This document shows, one piece after another, positions 46,100 to 62,438 of a DNA stretch of 64,000 nucleotides. This DNA is from Fictibacillus terranigra (lineage in GTDB: Bacteria; Bacillota; Bacilli; Bacillales; Fictibacillaceae): assembly GCF_030412265.1 (NCBI RefSeq), contig NZ_JAUHLN010000002.1:1054001-1118000 (forward strand). Reading direction: 5' to 3'. The notes under the pieces are model-generated. The model saw nothing but the letters and a program-made list of their open reading frames with translations. It was not told the origin of the DNA and ran no database searches. Position numbers and translations under genes: made by a program. The first letter of the stretch is position 1, and each line of letters begins with the position of its first letter.

Positions 46100-46109
46100 T
46101 CCCCCGCTG

Positions 46110-46364: not shown

Positions 46365-46402
46365 ATCCTCACTCCTTCAAACACGGCTTCCTTCTAAGAT
46401 AT

Positions 46403-46434
46403 GAAAAAAACGCCCGGTTCTATAACCAGGCGTT
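46403..46434 (-). terminator. Terminator of the MFS gene
   Basis: Minus strand AACGCCTGGTT / AACCGGGCGTT followed by TTTTTT. Confidence 0.8.
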
Positions 46435-46442
46435 CATCCCTT

Positions 46443-47693
46443 CTATATTTCTCCTCTGATTTCCTGCTTTACCTCACGCTTTTTCATAAGAGGCAGCAAG
46501 GTGGCTACTCCTACAAAAAGAAGGAGAGCAGCTACTTGATAGATCAGAATGATCGATACGTGCGTCTTCATCCAGCCGGCAACTGACATCGTGATGACCA
46601 TCGCTCCCATGAAAAGCGGATTTAGGATGCCATTTACACGCCCGATAAATGCTTCTTCAGTATTTTGCAGAATCATCGTGTTAATTCCGATATGGATGCA
46701 TGGCATGAAGAGTCCGGAAAAGAATTGAGCGGCAAGTGTCAGCCAGAGGACTTTCGACATGCCCATTCCGATAAAGCCAATGGCGCTCGCCGCAAGCCCC
46801 ATCGCAAGCAGCACTTGAGGCATGATTTTCTTCGACATCGAAATGGTAAGGCCGCCTCCAAGAATCATACCAATTCCAAAGGCTGCCATCAGCCATTGCA
46901 GCTGTTCTTTAGGAAGTCCAAGCCGTTCAGTAATCAAAAAGACACCGAGCGGCTGGGTTAAACCGATCGCAAGTCCGGCAGCTGCAAAACAGCCACCCAG
47001 CAAAGACAAAGGCTTGCTTCCCAACACATAGCGGAAACCGTCCTTCATCTCCTGCATTAATGTTGTTTTGACTTTTACTTCTTCAGCTTCACGGTCAGGC
47101 GGCAATAGTGAAAGGATACCTGCCGATAACAAGAACGCTACTCCCATCACTCCAATTGCAGCCATAATCCCGAAGTGCTGATAGATAAATGTTCCGATGA
47201 TCGGTCCGAGAATCATAAACAGAGCGAAAACCGTTTGATACATGGACATCCCCATCTGAACAAGCTCTGCCGGAACATGGAGCTTAAAGAGCTTCATGCC
47301 GGATGGCTGCGAGAACTGAGATAGGATGGAAGAGACAAGAGTCGCAAAGAAAATGACTTTCCAGCTTCCCAGCAGCAAGGTTAGAAGAACGGCAAATACC
47401 GATACAGCACTTAAAAGGTCGCACCATACCATCGTCCGCTTCGGTCTCCAGCGGTCAGCAAATGTCCCTCCAATGAAGGAAAACAGAAAGATCGGTGCAA
47501 ATTCCGCTACTGAGATGAGGGAAACCGCCACCGGATTTTCGTTCGTCTTTTCAATAACATACAGCAGGATGGAATAGTTCCTCACCCATATGCCGATCTG
47601 CAGAAAAAAGACAGACAGCAAGATCGTCCGGATAAACCGGTTCTGAAATAGGGCACCCATACCAACTTTTGGTGTAGCTGTTGTTTCGTTCAT
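46443..47693 (-). CDS. MFS efflux transporter
   Basis: A 416-residue twelve-span transporter of the MDR type. The loop 2-3 motif is GGTFADRWRPKRTM and the protein resembles macrolide/drug exporters (MefA/YfmO-like DHA3 group). Substrate unknown. ATG 47693 is 8 bases after AGGAGG, and that ribosome binding site is buried in a hairpin (47702-47731), which suggests drug- or ribosome-dependent control. In-frame codons upstream to 47795 are regarded as leader. Confidence 0.88.
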   Translation of the reverse strand: MNETTATPKVGMGALFQNRFIRTILLSVFFLQIGIWVRNYSILLYVIEKTNENPVAVSLISVAEFAPIFLFSFIGGTFADRWRPKRTMVWCDLLSAVSVFAVLLTLLLGSWKVIFFATLVSSILSQFSQPSGMKLFKLHVPAELVQMGMSMYQTVFALFMILGPIIGTFIYQHFGIMAAIGVMGVAFLLSAGILSLLPPDREAEEVKVKTTLMQEMKDGFRYVLGSKPLSLLGGCFAAAGLAIGLTQPLGVFLITERLGLPKEQLQWLMAAFGIGMILGGGLTISMSKKIMPQVLLAMGLAASAIGFIGMGMSKVLWLTLAAQFFSGLFMPCIHIGINTMILQNTEEAFIGRVNGILNPLFMGAMVITMSVAGWMKTHVSIILIYQVAALLLFVGVATLLPLMKKREVKQEIRGEI

Positions 47694-47731
47694 AAAAAAT
47701 ACCTCCTGATCCATCATTCTGGACAGGAGGC
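47694..47731 (-). promoter_or_regulatory. Hairpin that buries the MFS ribosome binding site
   Basis: Minus strand CCTCCTGTCC pairs with GGATCAGGAGG over an 8-base loop and is followed by TATTTTTT directly before ATG. The AGGAGG is the ribosome binding site, so the structure can act as a translational lock and also looks like a terminator. Confidence 0.6.
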
Positions 47732-48017
47732 TTTTTGAAACGCCGCAATAAGACAGAGAACATGCACACAAGCAGGGCACATATCTTTTGGGCACAAAAA
47801 GGCTGTACTAATCCTATCCAGAAAAATAATGATCGTAATTGTTTATACGAATGTTTTTTCAAGGAATAAGATTAGTTGTTCATCGCCCTTTGTTCACCCT
47901 TCCGATTTTTAATACTTTCATACTACTTCATTATAGACCGAAACTCAATAATTTTTCATAAATTTAGGCAGAATTTCCAAAAATAACACAGAAAGTTCAT
48001 CAAAGGAGGAAAACAGA

Positions 48018-48268
48018 ATGAAAAAACAGCTTTCAAAGATGTAACATGGACTCGAAGCTATATTGTCAGCGCGTTCGCCGGATTAGAGGTGAAACAAATG
48101 TTATACATTCATCTGAAATTTGTTAATGACCAGGCTGTCGCCCGTCTTAAAAAGGATTGGAGCGGGGACAATAGAGCATATGATCTGGGCGATGACCATA
48201 TCTTGAAGATGGCAGATATGTTAGCTGAAGGGATTGTGAAGCAGTTCCAAAACCACTTTCGACAATAG
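48018..48268 (+). pseudogene. Small conserved protein, frameshifted at a poly-A run
   Basis: ATG 48018 lies 7 bases after AAAGGAGG but stops after eight codons. Adding one A to the AAAAAA run restores an 83-residue frame: AFKDVTWTRSYIVSAFAGLE ... YDLGDDHILKMADMLAEGIV ... FQNHFRQ. Relatives of this pattern (DVTWTR..., GEDHILMMADMLS) are small Bacillus proteins of unknown role. Either a pseudogene, a phase-variable gene or an assembly error. Confidence 0.65.
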
Positions 48269-48270
48269 GA

Positions 48271-48307
48271 AAAGGAAGGCAGCCGGTTAACGGACGCCTT
48301 CCTTTTT
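48271..48307. terminator. Bidirectional terminator
   Basis: AAAGGAAGGC / GCCTTCCTTT around a 15-base loop with T-run, shared with the convergent lacI-family gene. Confidence 0.8.
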
Positions 48308-48326
48308 TTAAAACAATATGGCTCTC

Positions 48327-49289
48327 CTAGAGCCTGCCGACGGATTCACCCTCGACAAGCGTTACGCCGACTTTCTTTGCAGCTGCTGATTCTTTTCGAA
48401 TCAATTTAATCAGCTGCTCGGCGGCTGCTGATCCCCACTCCCGCTTCGAGTAATCGATGGTCGCTAAACGCGGATGAGTATAGTGGGCAACCTCAATATT
48501 ATCAAATCCGATAATATGAATATGTTCTCCTATCCGGTATTCAGTCTTGGATAAGTAATTATACATGCCGATCGCCATCTCATCGTTCAGACAAAAGACA
48601 GCAACGGGTCCGGAGAAGGATTCAGCGATTTCCCTCGCCGCTTTTTCTCCCGATGGCTTATTAAAGTCTCCGTTGATAACCGTATAATCAAGCCCGTTCT
48701 TTTGTGCTGTCACCACTGCCTGTTTCAAACGTTGATTGGAATCAAAGGAATCTTTCGGACCTGTCACGATGATGAGCTTTTTATGTCCCAGATCTAAGGC
48801 ATAATCAACCGCGAGCTTCGCTCCGGTTTTGTTGTCGAGCAACACTTGAGTGATATTATCATGTTCCAATTCACGGTCTAAAACGACGAGCTTATGTCCT
48901 CGGTCTGCGTAACTGATCAGTTCTTCACTTGAAAAGTTGGCATCCAGGATGATAGCGCCATCAATCATTCCTTCAGGAAGAAAACGATGGGATTCTTTTC
49001 CGCTGCAAACAATCAGCTCATACCCGTGGCAGGAAAGCTGATCGAGCATCCCCTGCTGCAGTTCCCCGTAAAAAGCCCCGCTGTAATTCGTTAAGAACAC
49101 ACCCGCAATTTTCGTTTCCCGTTTCTTGAGTGTTCGGGCGGCTGCATTGGGTATATAATTTAATTCCTTAGCGATCGCTAAAATCTTAGCCGAGGTTTCC
49201 TGAGTAACTTTCTGGCTTCCATTCAAGGCGTAAGATACCGTTGAAATGGAAACACCCGCTTTTTTTGCAATATCCTTAATACTAACCAC
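48327..49289 (-). CDS. LacI-family regulator of the beta-1,2-glucan locus
   Basis: A 320-residue repressor: N-terminal helix-turn-helix (IKDIAKKAGVSISTVSYALN) with the hinge NAAARTLKKRETK, then a periplasmic-binding-like ligand domain. The HTH and hinge are those of GalR/LacI proteins, which bind palindromes with a central CG, as in the GAAACGTTTC sites of this locus. The start is GTG 49289, 8 bases after GGAG; TTG 49304 overlaps that site. Its ligand is presumably sophorose or a longer beta-1,2-oligosaccharide. A cre-like site lies just upstream. Confidence 0.88.
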   Translation of the reverse strand: MVSIKDIAKKAGVSISTVSYALNGSQKVTQETSAKILAIAKELNYIPNAAARTLKKRETKIAGVFLTNYSGAFYGELQQGMLDQLSCHGYELIVCSGKESHRFLPEGMIDGAIILDANFSSEELISYADRGHKLVVLDRELEHDNITQVLLDNKTGAKLAVDYALDLGHKKLIIVTGPKDSFDSNQRLKQAVVTAQKNGLDYTVINGDFNKPSGEKAAREIAESFSGPVAVFCLNDEMAIGMYNYLSKTEYRIGEHIHIIGFDNIEVAHYTHPRLATIDYSKREWGSAAAEQLIKLIRKESAAAKKVGVTLVEGESVGRL

Positions 49290-49311
49290 CTGGGCACACT
49301 CCAATCTGTCA

Positions 49312-49326
49312 ATGAAAACGCTATCT
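49312..49326. promoter_or_regulatory. cre-like site upstream of the lacI-family gene
   Basis: ATGAAAACGCTATCT fits the CcpA consensus WTGNAANCGNWNNCW at almost all positions. It lies between the -10 box (49329-49334) and the start codon, so CcpA binding would block the transcript. Confidence 0.55.
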
Positions 49327-49328
49327 TC

Positions 49329-49359
49329 ATTATATAACGTTTTGTCATTATGATGGCAA
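49329..49359 (-). promoter_or_regulatory. Promoter of the lacI-family gene
   Basis: Minus strand TTGCCA (49354-49359) and TATAAT (49329-49334) with a long 19-base spacer, or TTATAT with 16 bases. An AAAACGTTAT, similar to the operator core, lies between them. Confidence 0.45.
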
Positions 49360-49377
49360 TTTCTGTTAGAGTTACGT

Positions 49378-52300
49378 CTACAGCCTTACGTCAATTATAT
49401 TTGTTTCCGCATCCGTTTTTAGGACAGCTTCAAGTTCGCTCAGCGGTATCGTAAAACCGCCTTTACGGTACCGGTTCGACAGGCGGACGGCCGATATCTG
49501 TTTACCATTGACGGATACACTGCTCTCCGCATTCCCATTGAGATGATAGCGGAATGAAACCGGCACACCGTTAACGTGGAAATGAAAGACAAGTCCATCC
49601 AGTCTTTTCGGAAGAACAGGATCGATTACAAGTGTATTTTCTTCTTTCCGGACCCCTAAACAACTTGAAATGAGCTGGTTCATAAAGATTCCTGGTCCGC
49701 TCGAATAAATGCGCCAGCCGCCTTTTACAGGAACTTTTCCTGCACGGAGTTCATTAAAGCGGTCCTGTGCTTCATAGCGCGTGTTAAATTTACCGTCCGA
49801 ACTGCTGAAGTACGCGTTGCTTTGTCTTCGTTCTGCGTTCGGCACTACGCTTTGAATCCCGATCGGGTTGATGAGAGACAGCCCATCCCATGCTTCTTCA
49901 GTTTTCCCGAGCTTGGCCATTGCCTCTACAAAGCGAATATGAGCATGAACATATTGAAGTCCCACTTCTCTTCCGAAGTTGGCTGCCTGTTCTGCACGTT
50001 TAAAATGAGTGCTTACACCTCCTGCATAATGGGCAGGGCGGTTCATGAGCCTTACACCATCCGGGCAGAACATGTGCTGTTTGATCAGTTCATAATGTTC
50101 CTCTGCTTTCTCCGGACTTAAAAGCTCACTGATCATACTGCGTGTCATAGGCAGAAGCCGATACTCGATGCCCGTCTTCCTATCCGTTGGGTGCAGCATC
50201 AGTTCTTCTTTTCCCGGCTCTTCCATGTATATGAAGCCAGGAATGACACCCGCTGAAAGAATGTATTGATTAAAATCAGACTCAATTCCTTTGGCCAGGG
50301 CCTTCAGCTCGTCCGCTTGCACTGGATCAAAATCTTCAAGCTGTTTGGAAAACTGCTTTATTACCTGGTAGGTTAATGATACAGTCCAACTGCTGACCAT
50401 ATATTGCTTGAGCTGTTGATTCGCTGGCTGGAGGGTATCATCCCAATCTCCATCTCCATAAGACGAGAGATGAGTACCATGCAAAAAGTTGTTCTTAATA
50501 TACTCAATCTGTTTTTTTACGTGGGCAATAAGAGATTGTTTTTCGCTGGTGAATTCGCCGCTATTTTTAGTGTAAGGGATGAGATCCTCAAGCACGCTGT
50601 AATCATTTGTCGCTTTTAAATAATCACTGAGCGTCTTCAATGGCCAAACGATAATATCCCCGTGGCTCTCCTGCTGCTGTATTTTGTAATAACGGTCAAA
50701 CATAAACCACTGCGGCCAATTGCCTGTACTTTCGTACTGGTGGGAGTAGACAGTTTTAATGATTTCACGGATAGCATCATAATTTTGCGTTGCTGTAAAA
50801 TATTCTGCCGGCCCCTGGCAAACGTCCCTCGTTCCCCACGCGGCGCCCCCATACTGTTCCAATCCGTGCGGAACAGAATAATGAACGAGCATGTTATGTG
50901 TATACCACCATGAGATCGCGTTTACCTTCTGCAGTTCTTCGTTGGACGCTCCATGGCGGCTTACATGAAAGCCGTTGTTCACCTTTCGATAGAATTCCCG
51001 GAATCGCTTTATTTCTCTTTCTGGATCTTTCTCAATAAACAGGGACTTTTCTCCAAAAAGCTGCCCCTGAACAGATAGCGACCAATGACTGGCTTCCTCC
51101 AGTTCAATCACGGCGAGTGAACCCGAACCTGGTTCAATGCTGTCTCCAAAAATCCGTTCGTCTCTTAACTTCATCCCAGTACCTGTTATCTTCATGTCAT
51201 AACGAAGCTTGGGATAAGCGGCTGCGCTATCAGATGATTTATCGGCAATGAACGAGAGAACGTTTCCATTTGTCTCCATATGATACGGAACATCATATTC
51301 ATTGTTGTTCATGGAGATCTGATTCGTTACGAGAAAACGGTAACGCTTCCCGCTCAACGAATGGACGTCCATGTGAATTTCAGGACAATCCACTGTGGTG
51401 TAACTAGTAATTCTCAGTGTATCATCAGCGGTTTTATAGAACCAGCGGGCATAATTAAATCCAATCTCGTAGGCCGAAGGCATCGTGAGTAAACGGTATT
51501 GCCCATCCATCTCCACATAGATGCGCTGCCCAGAGGTTTTCATCACATTCAGAGGATTCCTCGTGTTCGTGATCATTTTATTAAACGAGGTATTCCCTTT
51601 AACGATGTGAGAGTTGAAGACTCCATACATGTAGGAGGTGGACGTGATCACTTCTTCCGTTATTCCTACATTGTTTCCGGACACAATAATATGTCCGTGC
51701 GGCCGCTCTACAATCCGCTCTTTCGCCTTCAGCACCACATGCTCATAGGTACCGGTAAAAAAGGAGAGCAGTTCATCACCATCATATTCTTCCATCAGGC
51801 GTTCAGGATACAGATGTTGAACTTCCTTTTCTGTATAAGAGAGAGACGAAAGCGGATCCCCTAACAGGGACGATCGCTTCACTTTGCCTAAAGTTGTAAA
51901 TTCTTCTTGCTTTAGATTCTTAATCCCTTCCCATGCCATTTGAATTTCCTGTTGATAGTCTAGCTCTGCAACGGCCTCTGTATGATTTTCTTTATACAGC
52001 CCGTAAAAAACAAACTGTTCTTTTCCCGAAAGTGATACCTTGGACGACTGAAGAGCAATAAATCCAAATTCATATTGATAGATTTCATTTGCCAGTTCGT
52101 CTTTTTTCAAGATTTCTGGTTCATCATTGTCTTTATAGGAAAGACCGAAGAACTGAAATCCGTCCGTGGAAAAACCGGTGCTTTTCGTTAAAGAACCTTG
52201 CTGCAGATAAGGAAAGCCTACAGAGTTTGGCTGGTTTTGCCGCGAACATACAACATATCCTTTTTCTTCGTCTTCAAAAACCGAGTGATCTACATATTGA

Positions 52301-52725
52301 GAGACGAATGCCTCGTTTGTCCTCACAGCCCCTTGATCAGCAAGACCGATATCCTGTGCATAGATAATATCAATCGTCACACCGTTTCCTGCCGTTTCTA
52401 CCTCCCAGAACCATATCCCTTGTTCGGTCGGAGAAAAAGTAACCTTGTAATCTATTTCGGCGATCGCTCCTTCCCAAACTACTTGAGAGTCCGTATGGCT
52501 GATTTTGCTTCCCGAACGGCTGCCAAGCAACGGGTAAAATTGAATGCCTCCCTCACTGTGAATCCGGAGATACAGGTTATTCAGCGACCCATCAATAGGA
52601 TTGGACTGCACTTGATTTATCATGATCCCTTGATGAACGGCTTCAAACAGATCTCCGCTATTTAAAAATGTAAATCGGTAGTTTCCAGTCTGTATTTCGA
52701 ATGTGGAAGTTGTCTTGGTGGTCAT
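49378..52725 (-). CDS. 1,2-beta-oligoglucan phosphorylase (GH94)
   Basis: Very large GH94 protein, 1115 residues, close to the 1113 of Listeria innocua Lin1839, which reversibly phosphorolyses beta-1,2-glucooligosaccharides (sophorotriose and longer) to glucose 1-phosphate. The family's (alpha/alpha)6 catalytic barrel is in the C-terminal half, with YGDGDWDDTLQP near residue 760 carrying the general acid, plus QYGGAAWGTRDVCQGPAEY and YHAGGV-like PAHYAGGVSTHFK. No signal peptide, so it works inside the cell. ATG 52725 has GAGGGGAATCC; it follows the GH3 gene by 23 bases, so they form an operon. Cellobionate or chitobiose phosphorylase is less likely given size and context. Confidence 0.85.
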   Translation of the reverse strand: MTTKTTSTFEIQTGNYRFTFLNSGDLFEAVHQGIMINQVQSNPIDGSLNNLYLRIHSEGGIQFYPLLGSRSGSKISHTDSQVVWEGAIAEIDYKVTFSPTEQGIWFWEVETAGNGVTIDIIYAQDIGLADQGAVRTNEAFVSQYVDHSVFEDEEKGYVVCSRQNQPNSVGFPYLQQGSLTKSTGFSTDGFQFFGLSYKDNDEPEILKKDELANEIYQYEFGFIALQSSKVSLSGKEQFVFYGLYKENHTEAVAELDYQQEIQMAWEGIKNLKQEEFTTLGKVKRSSLLGDPLSSLSYTEKEVQHLYPERLMEEYDGDELLSFFTGTYEHVVLKAKERIVERPHGHIIVSGNNVGITEEVITSTSYMYGVFNSHIVKGNTSFNKMITNTRNPLNVMKTSGQRIYVEMDGQYRLLTMPSAYEIGFNYARWFYKTADDTLRITSYTTVDCPEIHMDVHSLSGKRYRFLVTNQISMNNNEYDVPYHMETNGNVLSFIADKSSDSAAAYPKLRYDMKITGTGMKLRDERIFGDSIEPGSGSLAVIELEEASHWSLSVQGQLFGEKSLFIEKDPEREIKRFREFYRKVNNGFHVSRHGASNEELQKVNAISWWYTHNMLVHYSVPHGLEQYGGAAWGTRDVCQGPAEYFTATQNYDAIREIIKTVYSHQYESTGNWPQWFMFDRYYKIQQQESHGDIIVWPLKTLSDYLKATNDYSVLEDLIPYTKNSGEFTSEKQSLIAHVKKQIEYIKNNFLHGTHLSSYGDGDWDDTLQPANQQLKQYMVSSWTVSLTYQVIKQFSKQLEDFDPVQADELKALAKGIESDFNQYILSAGVIPGFIYMEEPGKEELMLHPTDRKTGIEYRLLPMTRSMISELLSPEKAEEHYELIKQHMFCPDGVRLMNRPAHYAGGVSTHFKRAEQAANFGREVGLQYVHAHIRFVEAMAKLGKTEEAWDGLSLINPIGIQSVVPNAERRQSNAYFSSSDGKFNTRYEAQDRFNELRAGKVPVKGGWRIYSSGPGIFMNQLISSCLGVRKEENTLVIDPVLPKRLDGLVFHFHVNGVPVSFRYHLNGNAESSVSVNGKQISAVRLSNRYRKGGFTIPLSELEAVLKTDAETNIIDVRL

Positions 52726-52748
52726 GGATTCCCCTCAAATCTATCGGA

Positions 52749-54914
52749 TTATTTTACTAACTCAAATGTGGCTTCCTTTACGTTGACACTGTCTGGACCC
52801 ACGAAAACGGTAAAAGTCCCTGGATCGCTTGTAAACGTTAAATCGGAATGATAATATCTCAACTGATCTTCTTTAATGGAAAAAATGATCTTCTTTGTCT
52901 CCCCCGGAGCAAGTACTGCTTTTTCGAATGCTTTCAGCTCCTTCAACGGACGGACAACATCTCCTGCCATGTCCCTCACATAAAGCTGAACCGTCTCTTC
53001 TCCTTGCCGCTCTCCTGTGTTCGTGACCAGAACGGAAATCTTTATGGATTCCCCCGCCTTTAAGACAGGATTTGATAATACCGGTTCTCCAAAATGGAAT
53101 GTTGTGTAGCTTAAACCAAATCCGAACGGGTAAAGCGCCTCGTTCGGCACATCAAGGTACTGAGATACGTATCGTACTTGTGCATCTGGAGCTCCTTGAG
53201 GTCTTCCTGTATTGAAGCAATTATAATAAACCGGCACCTGTCCGACGGAATGCGGAAATGACATCGTCAGTTTTCCTGAAGGATTGACATCGCCTAAAAG
53301 AAGGTCGGCAACGGCATGCCCTCCTTCTGTTCCAGGGAACCAGGCTTCAATGATAGCGTCTGACTGCTCGGCAACATCACGAAGATCGAGAGGACGGCCG
53401 TTAAACAATACAGTAACAATGGGTTTCCCGATCCTTCTTATTGCAGCGATCAATTCGCGCTGAACCTCAGGCAGCCTGATGTCGCTCCGGCTGCCAGCTT
53501 CCCCGCTCATATCCGACTTCTCACCAAGTGCAAGAACAAGAACGTCCGCATGAGCCGCTATGTCGAGTGCCTCCTGCAGTTCCTCGTGTGTTCCGGTCTC
53601 AACGCCACAGCCTTTTGCAACGGATAACTTGTCTGATGTCATCCTGCCCTTTAGGCCGTCATACAGTTGAACCGCTACTTCTCTTGAACCCTTCCACGAC
53701 CATGGTCCAAGAATATCCCCGCTTTGTGCAAAAGGGCCGATAAGTGCAACCTTCTTGCCGGATTGAAGGGGCAGAACATTGTTATTTTTTAAAAGAACAC
53801 AAGACTTGGCTGCAAGCTTTTTCGCCACCGCTCTGTGCGGCTCACTCATAATTACTTCGTGCTCTCCATGTTCATCTGTTCCGCGATGTGGATTTTCAAA
53901 CAGTCCCAGTTTTTTCTTTAATGCGAGAATGCGGAGGACAGCTTCATCGAGAAGTTCTTCTGATACCTCATTGTTTACAATAAGCTCCTTTAAATGATTG
54001 ACATAGCATACGGTCATCATTTCAATATCCACGCCGGCAGCAAACGCCTTAGCCGCTGCCTCCCTTTCATCCGCAGCCACCCCATGAGGGATCAGTTCTT
54101 TCACCGCACCCCAGTCTGAAATCAAGATGCCGTCGAAACCCCATTCCGTTCTCAATAGTTCACGCATCAGCCTTTTATTTCCGGAGGCCGGAATACCCTC
54201 CACTGTGTTGAAAGCAGTCATAACCATCTCACAGCCCTCGTCTAACGCCGCTTTATAAGCCGGCAAGTACATTTCCCTCAGCTGACGCTCAGACATGTCC
54301 ACCGTATTGTAGTCACGACCTCCTTCTGCCGCTCCATATGCAGCAAAATGCTTTACACAAGCAGCCACCCTGTTGGTGTCAGAGGTTAAGTCTTTTCCTT
54401 GAAAACCGCGTACGAAGGCTCTTGCAAATTCACTGTTTAAGTAAGGATCTTCGCCGGTAGATTCCATTACTCTCCCCCACCGAGGGTCACGTACAAGGTC
54501 CACCATTGGAGCAAACGTGACATGAACACCTGAAACAGAGGCTTCATAGGCGGCAATCTCCGCACTTCTTTCTGCCAGTTTCAAATCCCATGAGCAGCCA
54601 ATAGCGAGCGGCACGGGAAAAATGGTCTTAAACCCGTGAACGATATCAGCCATGATCAACAGAGGAATGCCTAGCCGGTTTGATTTCAGATGCGCTTCCT
54701 GTATTGCCCGTACTTCTTTCGCACCGGATGCCCCAAGAACCGATCCGCAGTTTCTGACCGTATCCTTTGTCACGCCCATTTCTGCCATCGGTCCAGTAAT
54801 CTCCCCCTGTTCGTTTGATCCTTCAAAAAAAGGGGTAGCCAACTGCATGAGCTGGGCCACCTTCTCATCAAGTGTCATTTCCTTTAAAAGAGAATGCAGC
54901 GTCTGGTCTTGCAT
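52749..54914 (-). CDS. GH3 beta-glucosidase, likely sophoro-oligosaccharide-acting
   Basis: A 721-residue cytoplasmic beta-glucosidase: GH3 N-terminal barrel with nucleophile Asp at about 265 (GILISDWGAVKEL), KHFAAYGAAEGGRDYN, then the second alpha/beta domain and a fibronectin III-like C-terminus (GFGLSYTTFHFGEP onward). The corresponding gene in L. innocua (Lin1840) encodes an enzyme that prefers sophorose and short beta-1,2-glucans. It is first in the GH3-GH94 operon, with promoter TTGACG/TATAAT and operators on both sides of it. The ribosome binding site is GGAGGAGTTGAA. Confidence 0.9.
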   Translation of the reverse strand: MQDQTLHSLLKEMTLDEKVAQLMQLATPFFEGSNEQGEITGPMAEMGVTKDTVRNCGSVLGASGAKEVRAIQEAHLKSNRLGIPLLIMADIVHGFKTIFPVPLAIGCSWDLKLAERSAEIAAYEASVSGVHVTFAPMVDLVRDPRWGRVMESTGEDPYLNSEFARAFVRGFQGKDLTSDTNRVAACVKHFAAYGAAEGGRDYNTVDMSERQLREMYLPAYKAALDEGCEMVMTAFNTVEGIPASGNKRLMRELLRTEWGFDGILISDWGAVKELIPHGVAADEREAAAKAFAAGVDIEMMTVCYVNHLKELIVNNEVSEELLDEAVLRILALKKKLGLFENPHRGTDEHGEHEVIMSEPHRAVAKKLAAKSCVLLKNNNVLPLQSGKKVALIGPFAQSGDILGPWSWKGSREVAVQLYDGLKGRMTSDKLSVAKGCGVETGTHEELQEALDIAAHADVLVLALGEKSDMSGEAGSRSDIRLPEVQRELIAAIRRIGKPIVTVLFNGRPLDLRDVAEQSDAIIEAWFPGTEGGHAVADLLLGDVNPSGKLTMSFPHSVGQVPVYYNCFNTGRPQGAPDAQVRYVSQYLDVPNEALYPFGFGLSYTTFHFGEPVLSNPVLKAGESIKISVLVTNTGERQGEETVQLYVRDMAGDVVRPLKELKAFEKAVLAPGETKKIIFSIKEDQLRYYHSDLTFTSDPGTFTVFVGPDSVNVKEATFELVK

Positions 54915-54976
54915 TTCAACTCCTCCATTCGGTTCAAATAAACGTGCTAGTTTATTGGTTTCATAGCAATTACGTA

Positions 54977-54986
54977 GAAACGTTTC
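54977..54986. promoter_or_regulatory. Operator O1, GAAACGTTTC
   Basis: Palindrome about 10-20 bases downstream of the GH3 transcription start; a bound LacI-family repressor would block elongation. Confidence 0.75.
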
Positions 54987-55004
54987 GATTTATATTCAAG
55001 AAGC

Positions 55005-55034
55005 ATTATAAAGGGTGCCCGAACTCATCGTCAA
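55005..55034 (-). promoter_or_regulatory. Promoter of the GH3-GH94 operon
   Basis: Minus strand: TTGACG (55029-55034), 18-base spacer, TATAAT (55005-55010). Confidence 0.75.
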
Positions 55035-55044
55035 TGTTGGGATT

Positions 55045-55054
55045 GAAACGTTTC
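55045..55054. promoter_or_regulatory. Operator O2, GAAACGTTTC
   Basis: TGAAACGTTTCA palindrome just upstream of the GH3 -35 box. With O1 it brackets that promoter. Confidence 0.75.
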
Positions 55055-55151
55055 ACTTGTTGATTTTCCTGAATCCCTTGATGCTGAAGGGATCACCAGG
55101 CATCAATAGTTAGAAAATTTATTTTTTTATAAAAAGTTTTTGAAAATTGTG

Positions 55152-55180
55152 TTGTAAACGATTACACTATGAATTATAAT
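55152..55180 (+). promoter_or_regulatory. Promoter of the transporter operon with overlapping cre
   Basis: TTGTAA (55152-55157), 17-base spacer, TATAAT (55175-55180). TGTAAACGATTACA at 55153-55166 is a perfect match to the cre consensus TGWAANCGNTNWCA and covers the -35 box, so CcpA should repress when glucose is present. Confidence 0.8.
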
Positions 55181-55189
55181 AGCCCTGTC

Positions 55190-55199
55190 GAAACGTTTC
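55190..55199. promoter_or_regulatory. Operator O3, GAAACGTTTC
   Basis: Palindrome at about +3 of the transporter promoter, ten bases after the -10 box. Confidence 0.75.
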
Positions 55200-55246
55200 A
55201 ATAAATTTGCAAATTCGAATAACACTATATTTTTTTACAAGAAATA

Positions 55247-55256
55247 GAAACGTTTC
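55247..55256. promoter_or_regulatory. Operator O4, GAAACGTTTC
   Basis: Palindrome in the leader of the binding-protein mRNA, 57 bases after O3, allowing repression by looping or roadblock. Confidence 0.75.
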
Positions 55257-55348
55257 ACCAAAAAGTATGGTTTACTGGTAGATACCTGCAATACAGAAGT
55301 AAAATGAGGAAAGACAAAAAAATTGATCCATGTACAGGGGGAACGAAT

Positions 55349-56608
55349 ATGAAAAACTGGTTACCTAAACTTAACAAAAAACTAGTTGTAGGATCGTTGG
55401 CAGGAGCTTTGCTCGTATCAGGGGCACTCACAGGCTGTTCATCCGGTTCATCCAGCGGCGGTAATACGGTGATCAACGTATGGGGTATGGGAGAAGAAGC
55501 CAAATCCCTTCCGAAGATCGCAGAAGCATTCGAAAAAGAAAACCCGAAAATTGATGTAAAGGTACAGGCTATTCCTTGGGAAACGGCTCACGACAAATTG
55601 CTTACAGCTGTTGCTGCAAAAAAAGGTCCGGATGTTTTGCAAATGGGGACCACATGGATTCCTGAATTCGGCTCTGCAAAAGCCCTGATGGATTTAAAGC
55701 CCTATGTCAAAAAGTATCCTGAACTTGATTCATCCAATTATTACGAAGGATCTATTGAAACGACCAAATATAAAAACCAAACGGTCGGTGTTCCTTGGTA
55801 TATTGATACCCGTGTCCTCTTCTACCGAACGGATCTATTAAAGAAGGCCGGCTTCAGTGAAGCTCCAAAAACGTGGGAAGAGCTCAGTGCTGCTGCTAAA
55901 AAGCTGTCAGAGCGGGGCAAGAATAAGTATGGCATCAGCCTTGATGTGAAAGAACAGAGCTTAGGCTTTATGTTCGCCCGGCAAAACGGGGCACAATTGC
56001 TCGATGCCCAAGGGAAACCACATTTTAACGATCCGAAGTTCGTTGAAGCCGTCGATTACTTAAACAGCTTCTTTAAAAACGGTTCTGCGCCAAAAGATGC
56101 AGGGATTGATATCGTGCAAGGATTTCGTGGAGATGGGATTCTGCCGATGTTCATCAGCGGGCCTTGGATGGTTAAGCTTATAAATGATCAAGCTCCGGAT
56201 TTGAAAGGGAAATGGGCCACGGCCGTTCTTCCTAAAAAGGAGAACAATCTATCCGCACTCGGCGGCTCTAACCTTTCTGTCTTCCAATATACAAAACATA
56301 AAGATGCTTCTCTGAAGTTCTTGGCATTTATGAACAAGCCTGAAACCCAGCTGAAGTGGATGAAAATGACGAACTCCCTTCCTTCTGCCAAAAAAGCATG
56401 GGAAGACCCTTCATTAAAAGAAAACAAATTTTACACCACCTTTGGCGAGCAAATGAAGGGTTCTAAGCCAATGCCGGTTATCAAGCAATGGGAGCCGATC
56501 GCGCAAGAATACTTAAGCAGCTTCGAAAAAATTTATCGCGGGCAGACCACACCGAAAAAAGAAATGAACGTGTTCAATAAAAAAGCAGAAGATCTATTAA
56601 GTAAATAA
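55349..56608 (+). CDS. Sugar-binding lipoprotein of a CUT1 ABC importer
   Basis: A 419-residue extracellular solute-binding protein. The lipoprotein signal ends in ALTGC (Cys30), followed by a serine/glycine linker and the type 1 sugar-binding fold (NVWGMGEEAKSLPKIAEAFE; MGTTWIPEFGS; FISGPWMVKLIND; ALGGSNLSVF). Cluster order equals L. innocua lin1841, whose product binds beta-1,2-glucooligosaccharides. ATG 55349 follows GGGGGAACGAAT; the longer frame from 55304 lacks one. First gene of the binding protein-permease-permease operon. Confidence 0.9.
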   Translation: MKNWLPKLNKKLVVGSLAGALLVSGALTGCSSGSSSGGNTVINVWGMGEEAKSLPKIAEAFEKENPKIDVKVQAIPWETAHDKLLTAVAAKKGPDVLQMGTTWIPEFGSAKALMDLKPYVKKYPELDSSNYYEGSIETTKYKNQTVGVPWYIDTRVLFYRTDLLKKAGFSEAPKTWEELSAAAKKLSERGKNKYGISLDVKEQSLGFMFARQNGAQLLDAQGKPHFNDPKFVEAVDYLNSFFKNGSAPKDAGIDIVQGFRGDGILPMFISGPWMVKLINDQAPDLKGKWATAVLPKKENNLSALGGSNLSVFQYTKHKDASLKFLAFMNKPETQLKWMKMTNSLPSAKKAWEDPSLKENKFYTTFGEQMKGSKPMPVIKQWEPIAQEYLSSFEKIYRGQTTPKKEMNVFNKKAEDLLSK

Positions 56609-56619
56609 AGGAAAACGAT

Positions 56620-56649
56620 GATAACTAGCAGAGCATTCTGCTAGTTATC
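56620..56649 (+). other. Intercistronic stem-loop
   Basis: GATAACTAGCAGA and its exact complement with a GCAT loop lie between the binding-protein and permease genes. No T-run follows, so it probably protects the upstream mRNA or trims read-through, raising binding protein over permease. Confidence 0.7.
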
Positions 56650-56694
56650 CCTTTACTATTTAAATGAAATTGCTTGCGCAGAAAGGAGCGAAAC

Positions 56695-57579
56695 ATGAAA
56701 GCCATTAACACTAAAACACCTTACCTCTTTATCGCACCGGCTCTCCTTCTTTTAGGCCTCTTCTCACTGTTTCCAATCGTCGTTGCATTAGTCATCAGTT
56801 TTACGGATATCAGCCTGGAAGGTTTGGGCGACTGGTCGATGATTCACTTCGTTGGCTTGGATAATTACGCTCAAGTATTTAAAGATCCGATCTTTATGAA
56901 GTCCTTATTTAATACTATTTTTTATGTCGTCATCGGCGTTCCTTTGGTTATTGTGTGCTCCCTTGCCATTGCCTTGTTGATTAACTTCGGCAAGTCACGG
57001 ATATTCCGGGCATTCCGGGTAATCTTTTATATGCCATCCATCACCAACGTCGTCGCAGTAGCCGTCGTATGGAGCTACCTTTACAATCCGCAGCTTGGAC
57101 TCTTTAATTATGTTTTGAACTGGCTTCACCTTCCTTCCGTTCCATGGCTCACTGATCCGACGATGTCGAAAGTTTCGCTGATTGCCCTCGCGGTCTGGAG
57201 AGGGATCGGTGTAAACATGATCATCTTTTTAGCTGCGCTCCAAGGGATACCAAAAACGTATTATGAAGCGGCGCAGCTTGACGGAGCAACCAATTGGAAA
57301 CAGCTGACGAAGATTACATTGCCGCTCCTGCGCTATGCGATCTTTTTCGTTTCCATCACCACCATGATCGGCTGGCTCCAATTTTTTGAAGAGCCACTCG
57401 TCATGACAAAAGGCGGCCCACTGGACAGTACTACTTCCGTCGCTCTGTTTATTTACAAAAATGGCTTCCAGCTCAGTAACTTCGGATATGCCGCTGCCGG
57501 TTCGTTTGTTTTATTTATCACAATCATCATTATCACTCTGCTTCAATTCCGTTTGCAGAAAAAGGAGGTGGATTATTAG
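56695..57579 (+). CDS. ABC sugar permease (MalF type)
   Basis: 294 residues with six membrane spans. The EAA loop that docks the ATPase is YEAAQLDGATNWKQLTKITLPLL (about 193-215). CUT1-type permease, forming a heterodimer with the next gene product. ATG 56695 follows AAAGGAGCGAAAC; upstream codons to 56674 contain that site. Its stop codon is immediately followed by the start of the second permease. Confidence 0.92.
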   Translation: MKAINTKTPYLFIAPALLLLGLFSLFPIVVALVISFTDISLEGLGDWSMIHFVGLDNYAQVFKDPIFMKSLFNTIFYVVIGVPLVIVCSLAIALLINFGKSRIFRAFRVIFYMPSITNVVAVAVVWSYLYNPQLGLFNYVLNWLHLPSVPWLTDPTMSKVSLIALAVWRGIGVNMIIFLAALQGIPKTYYEAAQLDGATNWKQLTKITLPLLRYAIFFVSITTMIGWLQFFEEPLVMTKGGPLDSTTSVALFIYKNGFQLSNFGYAAAGSFVLFITIIIITLLQFRLQKKEVDY

Positions 57580-58461
57580 ATGGGGAACTTAGAGATGAAT
57601 TCGATAAAAGCTAAACCAAAAGTAAACGCGTCCGTCAAAGCACGAAAAACGGCAAGCCTGCAGCAATGGACCACGGGCATCATATTGGCTCTTGGTGGTT
57701 TTCTCGTCTCTATTCCATTTATTTGGATGATTCTATCCGCGTTCAAACCAGAAATGGAGGTCATGCAGATCCCACCTACCTTCATCCCCAATGAATTTAC
57801 GCTGGAAAATTTTACGAACCTTTTTGAAAACATGAACTTTACGGTATATTTGCGCAACACAATCATAGTGGTGCTCTGTTCATTTGTGGGCTTATTTCTT
57901 AACGCCATGGCTGGGTATGCGTTTGCGAAATACCAGTTCAAAGGACGGGAAAAATTGTTTTACCTTGTTCTCGCTACGATGATGATCCCAGGGCAAGTTA
58001 CGATGATTCCAGTGTACTTGATCTTGAACCAGCTTCATCTGACCAATACAATGGCAGGGATTGTTTTACCGGGGCTAGTTGGCGCTTTCAGCATTTTTTT
58101 GTTCCGACAGTTCATGTCTACCATTCCAGACGAACTACTTGAAGCCGCACGTTTGGACGGAGCGAGTGAATTTCGGGTATTCGCCCAGATCATCCTTCCA
58201 ATCTCAAAGCCTATCCTTGCTGTTCAGGGCATCCTGACGTTCATCGCAGGCTGGAACAGCTTCCTCTGGCCGTTGATTATCGCCAATGATGAGAAACTGT
58301 ATACCCTTTCCGTCGGTCTCTCACTGTTGAAGGGACAATACGGAGGGAACTTCGCCCTGCAGATGGCGGGCTCTACTTTTATGGTCGTGCCGATTGTGAT
58401 CATTTTCATGCTGTTCCAGAAGCACATTATTGAGGGTTATACCATTTCCGGGATGAAGTAG
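57580..58461 (+). CDS. ABC sugar permease (MalG type)
   Basis: 293 residues, six spans, EAA loop LEAARLDGASEFRVFAQIILP (read from about 185) and the terminal GYTISGMK typical of MalG-like permeases. ATG 57580 directly abuts the upstream stop; AAAGGAGG lies inside the upstream gene. No ATPase gene follows, so MsmX-like sharing is expected. Confidence 0.92.
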   Translation: MGNLEMNSIKAKPKVNASVKARKTASLQQWTTGIILALGGFLVSIPFIWMILSAFKPEMEVMQIPPTFIPNEFTLENFTNLFENMNFTVYLRNTIIVVLCSFVGLFLNAMAGYAFAKYQFKGREKLFYLVLATMMIPGQVTMIPVYLILNQLHLTNTMAGIVLPGLVGAFSIFLFRQFMSTIPDELLEAARLDGASEFRVFAQIILPISKPILAVQGILTFIAGWNSFLWPLIIANDEKLYTLSVGLSLLKGQYGGNFALQMAGSTFMVVPIVIIFMLFQKHIIEGYTISGMK

Positions 58462-58467
58462 ACCATG

Positions 58468-58499
58468 CACGCAGACTTTTCATCGTCTGTGTGTTTTTT
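58468..58499 (+). terminator. Terminator of the transporter operon
   Basis: CACGCAGAC / GTCTGTGTG stem followed by TTTTTT. Confidence 0.8.
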
Positions 58500-58507
58500 G
58501 TTGCTCT

Positions 58508-58546
58508 ATAAAAAAAGAACGGTATTCCCACCAAGGGAATCCGTTC
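58508..58546 (-). terminator. Terminator of the secreted glucanase gene
   Basis: Minus strand GAACGGATTCCC / GGGAATACCGTTC followed by TTTTTTTAT. Confidence 0.82.
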
Positions 58547-58559
58547 ATCATTCATTGAA

Positions 58560-59903
58560 TCATTGGATAGAAAACTTTTCGTTTCTCAGCAAGTCTACCG
58601 GTTTTTTCGCAATAGGATCGTGATGGAAGTAATTGCGGATGACATCTTTCTTCACATGGTTCGCAATCGATACGATAATCATCCCCTGATCCAGTGCAAG
58701 GTAAGCTTTGGTCACTTCCCCGCTCTTTACATTGACGGAATCAAAGAATCCATATTTCCCGTAAGCGTGCAATTTTCTCAACTCATCAAGATTTTTATGG
58801 ACGGCTGCAGGCGCATAGTCGAGTGCAAGAAATGAAGCATGAGCCGTTACCGTTCCATCATCTTTATATCCTGAAGTCCCAAGCGGTGTTGCCGCGAATT
58901 CACTATATCCTTCAGGAGTGGCAGCAGGAGAGAATCCCCACGCCGGATAACCCTTCTCCTTGGCGAAAGCCATTTGCATATGAACATGCCGTGCGTTATT
59001 TAGCCCGAGAGCATCTTTGCCGTATTTTTTCTCGTTCAGCACGAGGCCTGGCATGAGTCCCTCAAACATGCTTCCTCCCCAACTCGGTACATACTTCACA
59101 CTATTATACTCATAGTGACCTTCAAAAACAGAGACACCGTCATATACTTCTGTTGGGCCCATTGGAATTTGTGACTGCCAATCCCATTCCGAAGGCAATG
59201 TTCTGAACATTTTCCACCAGTGCTCTTTCGGTACATCTCCTTTTCCAATCGCGATATAGCTGCCCAGCCTTGGCTCGGTATAGAACATTCCATAATGGTG
59301 GTCTGTCAGTTTACCGGTTACGACGTCATAACCCCCGCGGAACTGTCCGACTTCCGGATCGTAAAGTGTAGTGTAATTCATGGCGTTCACGAGCTTGCTC
59401 GTTAGCGGATAAAGCTCATTGTACGCTTGGCCAGCCGTCATCAATCCTGCCGTCAGCCAGCCATTATCTACCTGTGAAATAAATTGGCCCCAATCGGTTT
59501 TAAGAGAACCGTCCGTATTGTACCAATTGTAAAATAATCCGTTCCACTTCTTTAAACCATCCAGTGTATGCAGGGTGGTCCGGATTCGCTGAACGGCTTC
59601 CTTTCGCGTAATAAACCCCAATTCCTGTGCTGAGATGGTACTTAAGAGATACATGGAAATATTGGTTGGTGAGGTATGCTTGGCTTCTTCTGCCTTACCG
59701 TCTGGAAACCGCATCGCATCACTCGTTAACCCTGTTTTTGGATCGGTATAATCCACAAAATAAGAGTAAGAACTTTTTGCGATCGCTTTCAAATCATTTT
59801 TGAATGCAGCCTGGTTAAGGGTAGACGCCTGTGCCGGTGCGGATATGCACACTGTAAAAAAAACGCAAATTACTGCCATCATTAATTTCATCAGCCCGTT
59901 CAT
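58560..59903 (-). CDS. Secreted PF10091-family glucanase, probable GH144 endo-beta-1,2-glucanase
   Basis: A 447-residue exported enzyme: signal peptide about 1-26 (cleavage after AQA), then an (alpha/alpha)6 domain of the Glycoamylase family PF10091 (COG5368): SYFVDYTDPKTGLTSDAMR, VDNGWLTAGLMTAG, LGSYIAIGKGDVPKEHWW, SWGGSMFEGLMPGLVL, WGFSPAATPEGYSEF. GH144 beta-1,2-glucanases and the hydrolytic domain of cyclic beta-1,2-glucan synthases belong to this fold. With the GH94, GH3 and importer next door, release of sophoro-oligosaccharides outside the cell is the likely job. ATG 59903 follows AAGGGAGAAAA. The promoter has its own operator. Confidence 0.82.
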   Translation of the reverse strand: MNGLMKLMMAVICVFFTVCISAPAQASTLNQAAFKNDLKAIAKSSYSYFVDYTDPKTGLTSDAMRFPDGKAEEAKHTSPTNISMYLLSTISAQELGFITRKEAVQRIRTTLHTLDGLKKWNGLFYNWYNTDGSLKTDWGQFISQVDNGWLTAGLMTAGQAYNELYPLTSKLVNAMNYTTLYDPEVGQFRGGYDVVTGKLTDHHYGMFYTEPRLGSYIAIGKGDVPKEHWWKMFRTLPSEWDWQSQIPMGPTEVYDGVSVFEGHYEYNSVKYVPSWGGSMFEGLMPGLVLNEKKYGKDALGLNNARHVHMQMAFAKEKGYPAWGFSPAATPEGYSEFAATPLGTSGYKDDGTVTAHASFLALDYAPAAVHKNLDELRKLHAYGKYGFFDSVNVKSGEVTKAYLALDQGMIIVSIANHVKKDVIRNYFHHDPIAKKPVDLLRNEKFSIQ

Positions 59904-59928
59904 TTTTTCTCCCTTCAATAATTTTATC

Positions 59929-59938
59929 GAAACGTTTC
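59929..59938. promoter_or_regulatory. Operator O5, GAAACGTTTC
   Basis: Same palindrome as O1-O4, right after the -10 box of the glucanase promoter, placing the secreted enzyme under the same regulator. Confidence 0.75.
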
Positions 59939-59944
59939 ACCAAC

Positions 59945-59973
59945 ATTTTACCATCCCGCATTTTTAAGGTAAA
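59945..59973 (-). promoter_or_regulatory. Promoter of the secreted glucanase gene
   Basis: Minus strand: TTTACC (59968-59973), 17-base spacer, TAAAAT (59945-59950) preceded by TGG as extended -10. Confidence 0.65.
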
Positions 59974-60151
59974 CCCGTTTTCTGAATCTTTCGTCTGTTC
60001 AGACAAAAACAGGTCCTTTGGCGCCTGACAAAGGTTCTACTGATAAGCGAATGAAAGGCTTGGACCATGTACAGGCCGAAATTGGCAACTTCATGTGATG
60101 AGAAGTACAATAGAGCTAAAAAAGTAATTACGGTTGGAAAGGACAGACACT

Positions 60152-60577
60152 ATGTACATAGCCACTGCAGAAATTCAGCTGACTTATGCTGACACTGATA
60201 TGATGGGCATCATCTACCATGGAAATTATGTTAAGTTTCTTGAACTGGGACGTTCTGCACTCATTGCAGAGGCTGGTTTTGATTATCTTGAAATGGAACA
60301 GCTCGGTTACTATGCCCCTGTGTATAACCTGGAGATTACGTATAAAAAACCCATTCGTTTTGGAGAAAGAGTATTCGTAAAGACTTGGATAGAAGAAAAT
60401 AAACGTTCTAGAACCGTTTATGGATTTGAAATTGTAAAAGGAATCGAGAACGTAGAAACATGTGCCATAGGGACAACCACCCATATCGTAGTTCACGGAA
60501 AAAACTTCAGACCCGTTCCCTTCAATAAAGCGTTTCCTGAATGGTTTCAAAAATACGAAGAAATCAAAAAGCGATAA
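60152..60577 (+). CDS. Acyl-CoA thioesterase, 4HBT/YbgC type
   Basis: A 141-residue hotdog-fold thioesterase. The catalytic signature Asp16-x-x-Gly-x-x-x-His23 is seen in DMMGIIYHGNYVKFLELGR, with APVYNLEITYKKPIRFGE and the later VETCAIGTTTHIVV. Similar to B. subtilis YneP. It releases free acids from acyl-CoA; chain preference unknown. ATG 60152 is about 9 bases after AAAGGA; TTG 60134 is inside that site. Confidence 0.9.
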   Translation: MYIATAEIQLTYADTDMMGIIYHGNYVKFLELGRSALIAEAGFDYLEMEQLGYYAPVYNLEITYKKPIRFGERVFVKTWIEENKRSRTVYGFEIVKGIENVETCAIGTTTHIVVHGKNFRPVPFNKAFPEWFQKYEEIKKR

Positions 60578-60589
60578 GACTAAAAACGT

Positions 60590-60620
60590 AACGGAAGGCC
60601 TTATAGGCCTTCCGTTTTTC
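60590..60620. terminator. Bidirectional terminator
   Basis: AACGGAAGGCC / GGCCTTCCGTT with a 5-base loop and TTTTT, between convergent genes. Confidence 0.85.
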
Positions 60621-60623
60621 TTC

Positions 60624-61022
60624 TTATTTAAGCTGCCACCATCGTTTTTTGGAAGCTTCAACAAGCTGTGCAATCGCCTCTTTTGCTTCAGAGATCTGTT
60701 CCTTAATCGAAACCAGTTCTTCCTTAAGCTCACTGTTTTGATGAGTGAGCTCTTGGAGCTGACGTGAAAGCCACTCCATCTCACTGTTTTGCTGATCATC
60801 ATCTGTGAGAGAATCGGCGGCTTGAGCAAATCCCAAATTTCCAAGCAGTCCATCCTCTTTTAATAAGTTTGCCGCCATCATCATCATGCTGTTAAGGTCA
60901 ATGGTATCATCATCCTTGGCCAGAATACTTCCAGCCAAATTCATAATGCCATTAACATCCAATGCTTCGCTGCTGCTAACCTCTTCACTCTCTTGTTCTT
61001 GAATGTCTTTTTTTTCAGTCAT
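60624..61022 (-). CDS. Hypothetical protein with C-terminal coiled coil
   Basis: 132 residues. An acidic N-terminus (DIQEQESEEVSSSEALD), a middle helical part rich in Met and Leu (NSMMMMAANLLKEDGLLGNL) and a C-terminal heptad coiled coil (ELTHQNSELKEELVSIKEQI...EAIAQLVEASKK). ATG 61022 is preceded by GGGGGAGCGAACG; the longer frame to 61223 has none. It follows the frameshifted 61105-61423 gene on the same strand. Function unknown. Confidence 0.68.
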   Translation of the reverse strand: MTEKKDIQEQESEEVSSSEALDVNGIMNLAGSILAKDDDTIDLNSMMMMAANLLKEDGLLGNLGFAQAADSLTDDDQQNSEMEWLSRQLQELTHQNSELKEELVSIKEQISEAKEAIAQLVEASKKRWWQLK

Positions 61023-61104
61023 GCCGTTCGCTCCCCCTGTTTGCATCTTAGGCAAATATCCATAAACATCGTATGCACCACAGAGGAAATTTGTTAAAAA
61101 AATA

Positions 61105-61423
61105 TCAATACTCTTGGATGGTGCCCCACCTGTTGTAAGAGAGGAGATGGAGTTGTACCATGCTGTATACCAAATCCATAAGCTCAGGAACGAAATGAAC
61201 ATCGCCTCGCTCCCACTGTTCATTCCATACTATCAGATTTTCCCGAATGTATTGAATTTGTTCCTGTTTTTTTTCGTGCAGCAAACTCAATGACATGCAA
61301 TAGGACATTAAAATGATTGACTGACAACAGATCGGTCCTGTAGCATTCCTTAATGGCATCTTCAGCCGCGTCTTTGCGGACGTGAGCAACGTCTGTTCGA
61401 TCGGGCTTATTGCATTTTTTCAA
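61105..61423 (-). pseudogene. Unknown gene frameshifted at an A8 run
   Basis: The first frame reads CNKPDRTDVAHVRKDAAEDA through NVLLHVIEFAARKK; after the run of eight A (plus-strand T 61267-61274) the protein-like frame is the next one: QEQIQYIRENLIVWNEQWER ... FVPELMDLVYSMVQLHLLSY. Losing one A joins them into about 105 residues. The start is unclear (TTG 61423, or an ATG 18 bases upstream that needs another A lost from a run). Homopolymer slippage or sequence error is likely. Family unknown. Confidence 0.55.
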
Positions 61424-61505
61424 AGTTTTCCGATTGCTTCATGGCATTTAAAAGAAAAGCATAGGGAAATGCGGCAGTATTTTTTTTAACGTACAGAAAT
61501 GCAAA

Positions 61506-61541
61506 TAAAAATCTCCGGACGCATGAGCTCCGGAGATTTTT
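61506..61541. terminator. Bidirectional terminator
   Basis: AAAAATCTCCGG / CCGGAGATTTTT, 11-base loop. On the minus strand it ends the small hydrophobic peptide gene. Confidence 0.85.
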
Positions 61542-61570
61542 AACATAAGGGGATCTAGTTTCTATGCTGA

Positions 61571-61702
61571 TTAAGCACCAAGAATGGCTGTGATCGCATC
61601 CCGGATAATTGCTTGCTGCTCTGGCGTACCGAGAAGTACCGCTACGAGCAATGCAACCAAAAGGAGTAATGCAAGCACGATGGCGACTAGATTAATAGAC
61701 AT
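61571..61702 (-). CDS. 43-residue hydrophobic peptide
   Basis: ATG 61702 lies directly behind AAAGGAGGTGAGGGA, a near-perfect ribosome binding site. The peptide is one long hydrophobic helix (NLVAIVLALLLLVALLVAVL) followed by an amphipathic tail (TPEQQAIIRDAITAILGA), with no cysteine or signal peptidase site. It has its own terminator. Not recognised; could be a small membrane regulator or toxin-like peptide. Confidence 0.65.
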   Translation of the reverse strand: MSINLVAIVLALLLLVALLVAVLLGTPEQQAIIRDAITAILGA

Positions 61703-61883
61703 TCCCTCACCTCCTTTAAAAAAAGGATATAAGGGGACCCTTATGAAACTAGTATATGCCCTTTCTAGTAAACCTTTTTGTGCAGCTGTCCCTATCAGCA
61801 AAAAGAGGCTGTCCGGCTTGACGAATTTCACAGTTAGGGCGAAGCTATAAGTATACTTATAGATGTTGTTGGAGGGATTAATT

Positions 61884-62336: not shown

Positions 62337-62403
62337 GCCGGCTTAAAACCCGCAGATGTGTCCTTGTTCCGATTGAACCGACACATTTTATAACCGAAAC
62401 AAC

Positions 62404-62436: not shown

Positions 62437-62438
62437 CT

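Follow-up and report, generated by a model that had tools for sequence, protein, structure and literature searches.

The DNA analysed here (the window) is a stretch of 64,000 nucleotides from Fictibacillus terranigra (NCBI RefSeq assembly GCF_030412265.1, contig NZ_JAUHLN010000002.1, positions 1,054,001 to 1,118,000; genome about 5.0 Mb), and a group of seven genes within it (positions 48327 to 59973) very probably forms an inducible locus for the catabolism of foreign beta-1,2-glucan. A sequence-only reading had proposed a locus of this kind, and its seven gene identities and positions were confirmed: all seven are open frames of the sizes it gave in the window's list of open reading frames, and the Pfam families agree for all seven proteins. 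Start codons were corrected by eye from ribosome-binding sites. The genes are as follows.

48327-49304, minus strand: lacI, LacI-family repressor, 325 residues (Pfam LacI and Peripla_BP_3)
49378-52725, minus strand: sogP, 1,2-beta-oligoglucan phosphorylase (SOGP) of glycoside hydrolase family GH94, 1115 residues (Pfam SOGP_N, SOGP_2nd, SOGP_4th and Glyco_hydro_94)
52749-54914, minus strand: GH3 beta-glucosidase, predicted to cleave sophorose, 721 residues (Pfam Glyco_hydro_3; kinship with Lin1840)
55304-56608, plus strand: CUT1 solute-binding lipoprotein (Pfam SBP_bac_1), with a likely true start at 55349 and a lipobox LTGC identified by eye
56674-57579, plus strand: ATP-binding cassette (ABC) permease A (Pfam BPD_transp_1), likely true start 56695
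57580-58461, plus strand: ABC permease B (Pfam BPD_transp_1)
58560-59918, minus strand: SGL, predicted secreted endo-beta-1,2-glucanase, GH193-like (Pfam Glycoamylase PF10091 and DUF3131), 452 residues in the open frame, most likely starting with the ATG at 59903, with a signal peptide identified by eye and ending ...APAQA-S (S27 counted from this ATG, S32 in the open frame)

SOGP, the GH3 enzyme and the binding protein are each closest, among solved structures, to a characterised beta-1,2-glucan protein, which supports the assignment of the locus to beta-1,2-glucan utilisation. The best solved relative of SOGP was LpSOGP (5h3z, 1039 bits over residues 9-1095), compared with 24 bits for cellobiose phosphorylase, so the kinship with cellobiose phosphorylases that would have spoken against the assignment was not found. 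The ligand residues of LpSOGP were taken as named in the part of PMC5309861 available, with an offset of +1 for the chain numbering relative to the paper, after which 14 of 14 residue letters match; 13 of these 14, including the acid D760 and R907, are conserved in the window, and Y141 is replaced by Phe. For the GH3 enzyme the best solved relative was Lin1840 (777 bits), and all nine catalytic and subsite residues named in the available part of PMC4757417 (D270, E473, R572, W271, Y583 and the subsite -1 set) are conserved. The best solved relative of the binding protein was Lin1841 (5ysb, 497 bits), followed by another CUT1 protein of known structure at 260 bits. The window thus shares gene types, neighbourhood and functional residues with lin1839-lin1841 of Listeria innocua (PMC3960220, PMC4757417, in excerpt), and the earlier claim of matching types and order stands, with the order taken from the Listeria gene numbers. 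The excerpts mention no secreted SGL in the Listeria cluster, whereas in the window an SGL lies alongside, with the same operator. Conversely, SGR_2422-2427 of Streptomyces griseus combine a GH193 SGL with a Lin1841-like importer and a glucosidase, as in the window, but the excerpt of PMC12369401 describes a GH1 glucosidase and mentions no SOGP, in contrast to the SOGP and GH3 of the window.

No ATPase gene was found within the locus, so the ATPase of the importer must, judging from the gene content, be encoded outside it, and the description of the system as self-sufficient was therefore too strong. The UgpC model gave 102 matches in the genome, only one of which, a UgpC/MsmX-type protein on another contig, scored above the curated cut-off. 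The 13 kb around its gene contain no relative of any of the seven proteins of the window, importer parts included, which makes it a plausible candidate for the role of shared ATPase. Two hairpins were found in the importer region.

56620-56649, plus strand: perfect hairpin of 13 pairs in the gap that follows the binding-protein gene, ahead of permease A (z -3.81 for 56600-56695)
58467-58494, plus strand: terminator-like hairpin 3' of permease B (hairpin scan)

The first has no T run on the coding strand and may set the level of the binding protein above that of the permeases.

The palindrome GAAACGTTTC is the putative operator of the locus, and its copies and the neighbouring promoter-like site are listed below.

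54977-54986: putative operator GAAACGTTTC, copy 1 (sequence match)
55045-55054: putative operator GAAACGTTTC, copy 2 (sequence match)
55190-55199: putative operator GAAACGTTTC, copy 3, overlapping the first hexamer of the promoter-like site
55247-55256: putative operator GAAACGTTTC, copy 4 (sequence match)
59929-59938: putative operator GAAACGTTTC, copy 5, immediately upstream of the SGL gene (sequence match)
55201-55173, minus strand: promoter-like site TTGAAA-17-TATAAT (promoter scan)

The five copies in the window compare with 0.07 expected, all of them lie within promoter regions of the locus, and GAAACGTTTC is the commonest of the 66 kinds of palindromic 10-mers present. The promoter scan overall is weak evidence (20 sites versus 20.2 expected), and an Rfam search of 44000-64000 gave no match. 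The proposal that the depolymerase belongs to the same regulon is backed by the copies of GAAACGTTTC before the SGL gene and in the divergent promoter region, and the SGL and SOGP units are predicted to form one LacI-controlled regulon through this site.

The head of the LacI protein (SISTVSYALNG) resembles those of LacI proteins beside SOGP or SGL in other genomes. Among 26 distinct heads in the loci compared, 21 come from LacI proteins beside Bacillota SOGP/SGL-locus genes, and 20 of these 21 have Tyr in the recognition helix (Leu in L031); the other five have Arg in four cases, including the Nonomuraea locus L096, and Tyr in L115. We take this position, which is presumably Arg in many LacI proteins, to be informative about the site recognised. 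One further site lies just upstream of the lacI start.

49313-49326, plus strand: cre-like site (catabolite-responsive element; one exact match in the window)

The pattern, which follows what we take to be the CcpA cre consensus, was matched once or more in 7 of 100 shuffles; the site suggests a possible control of lacI by CcpA.

The 300-bp regions upstream of SGL were compared across genomes after removal of near-copies at 97% (n=44, window included). GAAACGTTTC was present in 32 of the 44 non-redundant loci, compared with 4 of 44 for the next of 1024 palindromes, and in 21/32 versus 1/32 when the redundancy cut was set at 85%. In the 400 bp preceding the gene it was also found in 14/17 regions for the binding protein and in 15/21 for GH3, with all other palindromes in no more than 1. 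Upstream of SOGP it was observed in just 14 of 45 regions (palindrome CGTCCGGACG in 10/45); SOGP often follows GH3. In the 13 SGL loci with two copies, the spacing was 107-117 bp in 12 and 172 bp in one. Eight SOGP loci from further genomes, hand-picked from 50, all carried at least one copy, not always placed before a start.

SGL and SOGP were unlinked (on different contigs or about 2 Mb apart) in 10 genomes, and GAAACGTTTC was found at both in seven of them (G107, G129, G140, G213, G249, G266 and G359). Of the exceptions, G364 had it at SGL only, with two further copies with G/C flanks lying farther from SOGP (in L113), while G033 and G096 had it at SOGP only; in the second SOGP locus of G033 (L116) none was found before GH3. 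A full-text literature search for GAAACGTTTC returned no beta-1,2-glucan paper by title, none of glucan, sophor, Listeria, Paenibacillus or AACGTT appears in the main text of a paper about LacI regulons (PMC4052901), and among the titles listed in literature searches, which covered main texts of mostly open-access papers, none reports such a beta-1,2-glucan LacI regulon.

A pattern scan of genome contigs gave 27 SGL loci, with flanks of limited length (L026 ends early, L032 is partial). SOGP was present within the available flanks in 9/27; in L027 the GH3, importer and LacI genes were present and SOGP was not seen in the flanks, and 17 of the 27, 15 of them named Paenibacillus, had none of SOGP, GH3 and binding protein there. 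In 398 Bacilli genomes, SGL matches were found in 49, made up of 24 genomes with a standalone enzyme, 24 in which all matching frames are of synthase size, and G275 with a fragment, and SOGP was found in 50. SOGP occurred in 13 of the 24 genomes with standalone SGL versus 37 of the 374 others (Fisher p 3.8e-7, species not being independent).

On this evidence we lean towards a Bacilli-wide beta-1,2-glucan regulon joined by GAAACGTTTC and by a recognition helix common to its LacI proteins, in which SGL bearers would be primary degraders and the others oligosaccharide scavengers under the same switch. This reading spans SOGP loci without a glucanase through to Paenibacillus-type genomes whose SGL gene is some 2 Mb away from SOGP or on a separate contig. 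Several observations weigh against the proposed beta-1,2-glucan locus and its shared operator. GAAACGTTTC is absent upstream of SGL in 12 of the 44 loci, among which L010 and L030 have an operon-internal SGL and L094-L096 are two archaeal and one actinobacterial; no SOGP was seen within the flanks of 15 of the 16 named Paenibacillus loci; and the site is not exclusive, since eight Paenibacillus-type genomes carry 19-26 copies compared with 3-7 of the control pattern; in G129, 11 of the 16 off-locus copies lie within frames. These enriched genomes also speak for the alternative that GAAACGTTTC is a general LacI-family site which does not tie SGL to the repressor of SOGP, as do L115 in G395, where five copies lie in a second LacI cluster, and one copy with CC/GG flanks in the window's own genome (L105, 1501-1510), which has another lacI on one side and a debranching-enzyme gene (GDE_N_bis domain) on the other, as placed by the start of that domain. 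Sites of E. coli Cra, which we believe to resemble GAAACGTTTC, were counted on the same side. The window's genome as a whole holds 14 copies of GAAACGTTTC versus 13 of the reversed control pattern, and apart from the L105 copy the 14 comprise 5 in the promoter regions of the locus and 8 within frames, a distribution that argues against a general site. The presence of GAAACGTTTC at both the unlinked SGL and the SOGP unit in most of the genomes described above argues in the same direction, and CcpA was rejected as its owner since the spacing misfits the cre pattern. A general site is therefore considered unlikely, though it deserves some weight, and the shared beta-1,2-glucan regulon is preferred.

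The substrate of the locus was considered in the same way. Lin1840 acts on laminaribiose about as well as on sophorose, and sophorosides are present in plants (PMC4757417, in excerpt), so the main substrate of the locus might be a different beta-glucan or plant sophorosides, and beta-1,2-glucan a secondary one; cleavage of laminaribiose by an enzyme of this GH3 type is a point against the beta-1,2-glucan assignment. The SOGP domain set and its conserved ligand residues stand against such a shift, which is very improbable. The window's genome contains only one PF10091 protein, so no cyclic glucan synthase was seen in it, and the beta-1,2-glucan used should accordingly be foreign.

The closest solved relative of SGL was the GH189 cyclisation domain (8wy1, 177.8 bits), followed by GH192 (8xuj, 88.7). 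Membership of GH144 was rejected on scores of 42 bits for CpSGL, 22 for XcSGL and up to 51 for Bacteroides 'putative glucoamylases'. The GH189 domain (TiCGS, NdvB) shares its fold with SGL, but SGL is a free secreted protein in which the nucleophile E1442 of TiCGS is replaced by P331, and the approximately 165-residue GH189 insertion (8wy1 chain 143-311, extra helices between alpha4 and alpha5) has no counterpart between SGL residues 169 and 174; GH189 membership was rejected on these two grounds, which also lead to the prediction of an inverting hydrolase. The position of E1442 is Ala in the single GH192-like and the single GH144-like rows.

The (alpha/alpha)6-barrel fold of the SGL clan was found for SGL, and E239, F286 and Y367 of XcSGL correspond in the alignment to E215, F285 and Y338. 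The candidate base D160 of the GH193 enzyme SkSGL corresponds to D151. In the 44 aligned rows outside GH189, GH192 and GH144, the base is Asp in 44, the acid Glu in 43, and the Phe and Tyr are kept in 43 and 44, respectively. SGL also resembles SkSGL in its candidate acid and base residues, in the absence of the GH189 nucleophile and insertion, and in its Gram-positive distribution (PMC12102758, in excerpt). The base and acid are 64 residues apart in SGL versus 86 in SkSGL, and the clade of the window forms a separate branch. In the tree SkSGL was represented by a stand-in, the Nonomuraea protein of L096 with the same 86-residue spacing, whose branch the tree does not place firmly relative to the window's clade. 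The GH192-like and GH144-like rows could not serve as a root, since their branches measure 9-10 units and there were warnings of long-branch joins. SGL itself groups with same-genus genomes, its nearest relatives of named origin being Fictibacillus proteins with 76-85% identity. Taken together, SGL fits GH193 best and is predicted to be an inverting endo-beta-1,2-glucanase; the proposal that the secreted PF10091 enzyme cuts beta-1,2-glucan is thereby supported, with a family that is GH193-like rather than GH144. That SGL is instead a GH189-type retaining transglycosylase, cyclising or reshuffling beta-1,2-glucan, is scarcely credible given Glu in 9/9 GH189 rows versus Pro in 44/44 rows of the window's kind, the missing insertion (8wy1 chain 142 to 312), a profile score of 628 for the GH193-like pair versus 475 for GH189, and the separation of GH189 in the tree with support 100/100, even though its domain is the closest solved sequence.

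In the proposed scheme, the secreted GH193-like SGL would cut the polymer to oligosaccharides outside the cell, and the Lin1841-like lipoprotein and the two permeases, with an ATPase from elsewhere, would import them. The end products of SkSGL are Sop4-8, and Lin1841 has Sop3-5 as ligands according to the excerpt of PMC12369401, so that product and uptake sizes overlap. Judging from kinship and conserved residues, SOGP would then phosphorolyse chains of at least three units to glucose 1-phosphate, and GH3 would hydrolyse the leftover sophorose to glucose. LacI bound to GAAACGTTTC would repress the SGL gene along with the two divergent units, and would be released when an oligosaccharide or a product arrives.

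The part kinds are all known, as is a GH193 cluster in Streptomyces griseus; what is added is the placement of SGL near GH193 and a putative operator linking SGL to SOGP even where they are unlinked. The locus unites the SOGP, GH3 and importer half known from Listeria with the recently named GH193 glucanase half, and GAAACGTTTC may serve as a short sequence mark for locating users of beta-1,2-glucan and their unlinked glucanases. Beta-1,2-glucans are made by Gram-negatives such as rhizobia and E. coli (PMC4757417, in excerpt), and the results suggest that Bacillota, perhaps together with haloarchaea, consume the cyclic and linear forms of these glucans.

Relatives of SGL were found on two haloarchaeal plasmids (L094, 12001-13251, and L095, 12001-13323; 46% and 43% identity), where they adjoin bglX and a two-ATPase ABC importer in an arrangement that differs from that of the window; this pairing counts in favour of the beta-1,2-glucan assignment. 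These surroundings also contain genes for sulfatases and sugar isomerases. The main text of PMC12102758 does not use the word archaea. In a genome of the same genus (G001), L007 shows at about 1500-3105 a 36-residue SGL tail followed by part of permease B, which directly adjoins the end of SOGP, while lacI is retained up to the limit of the available stretch (276 of 325 residues); from these remnants the system seems to have been lost by deletion. SOGP and GH3 in G359 (L112, 11715-18091) are accompanied by a ThuA protein, by a pair of oxidoreductases resembling inositol/levoglucosan dehydrogenases, with scores below curated cut-offs, and by two xylose-isomerase-like proteins. The annotation around the haloarchaeal SGL shows comparable genes; they perhaps form a linked oxidative sugar route. 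Enterobacterial plasmid records (for example H76 and H78 of Escherichia coli; H80-H83 of Klebsiella) include proteins whose annotation reads cyclic beta 1-2 glucan synthetase, GH94 or glucoamylase family; these are perhaps mobile cyclic glucan synthases.
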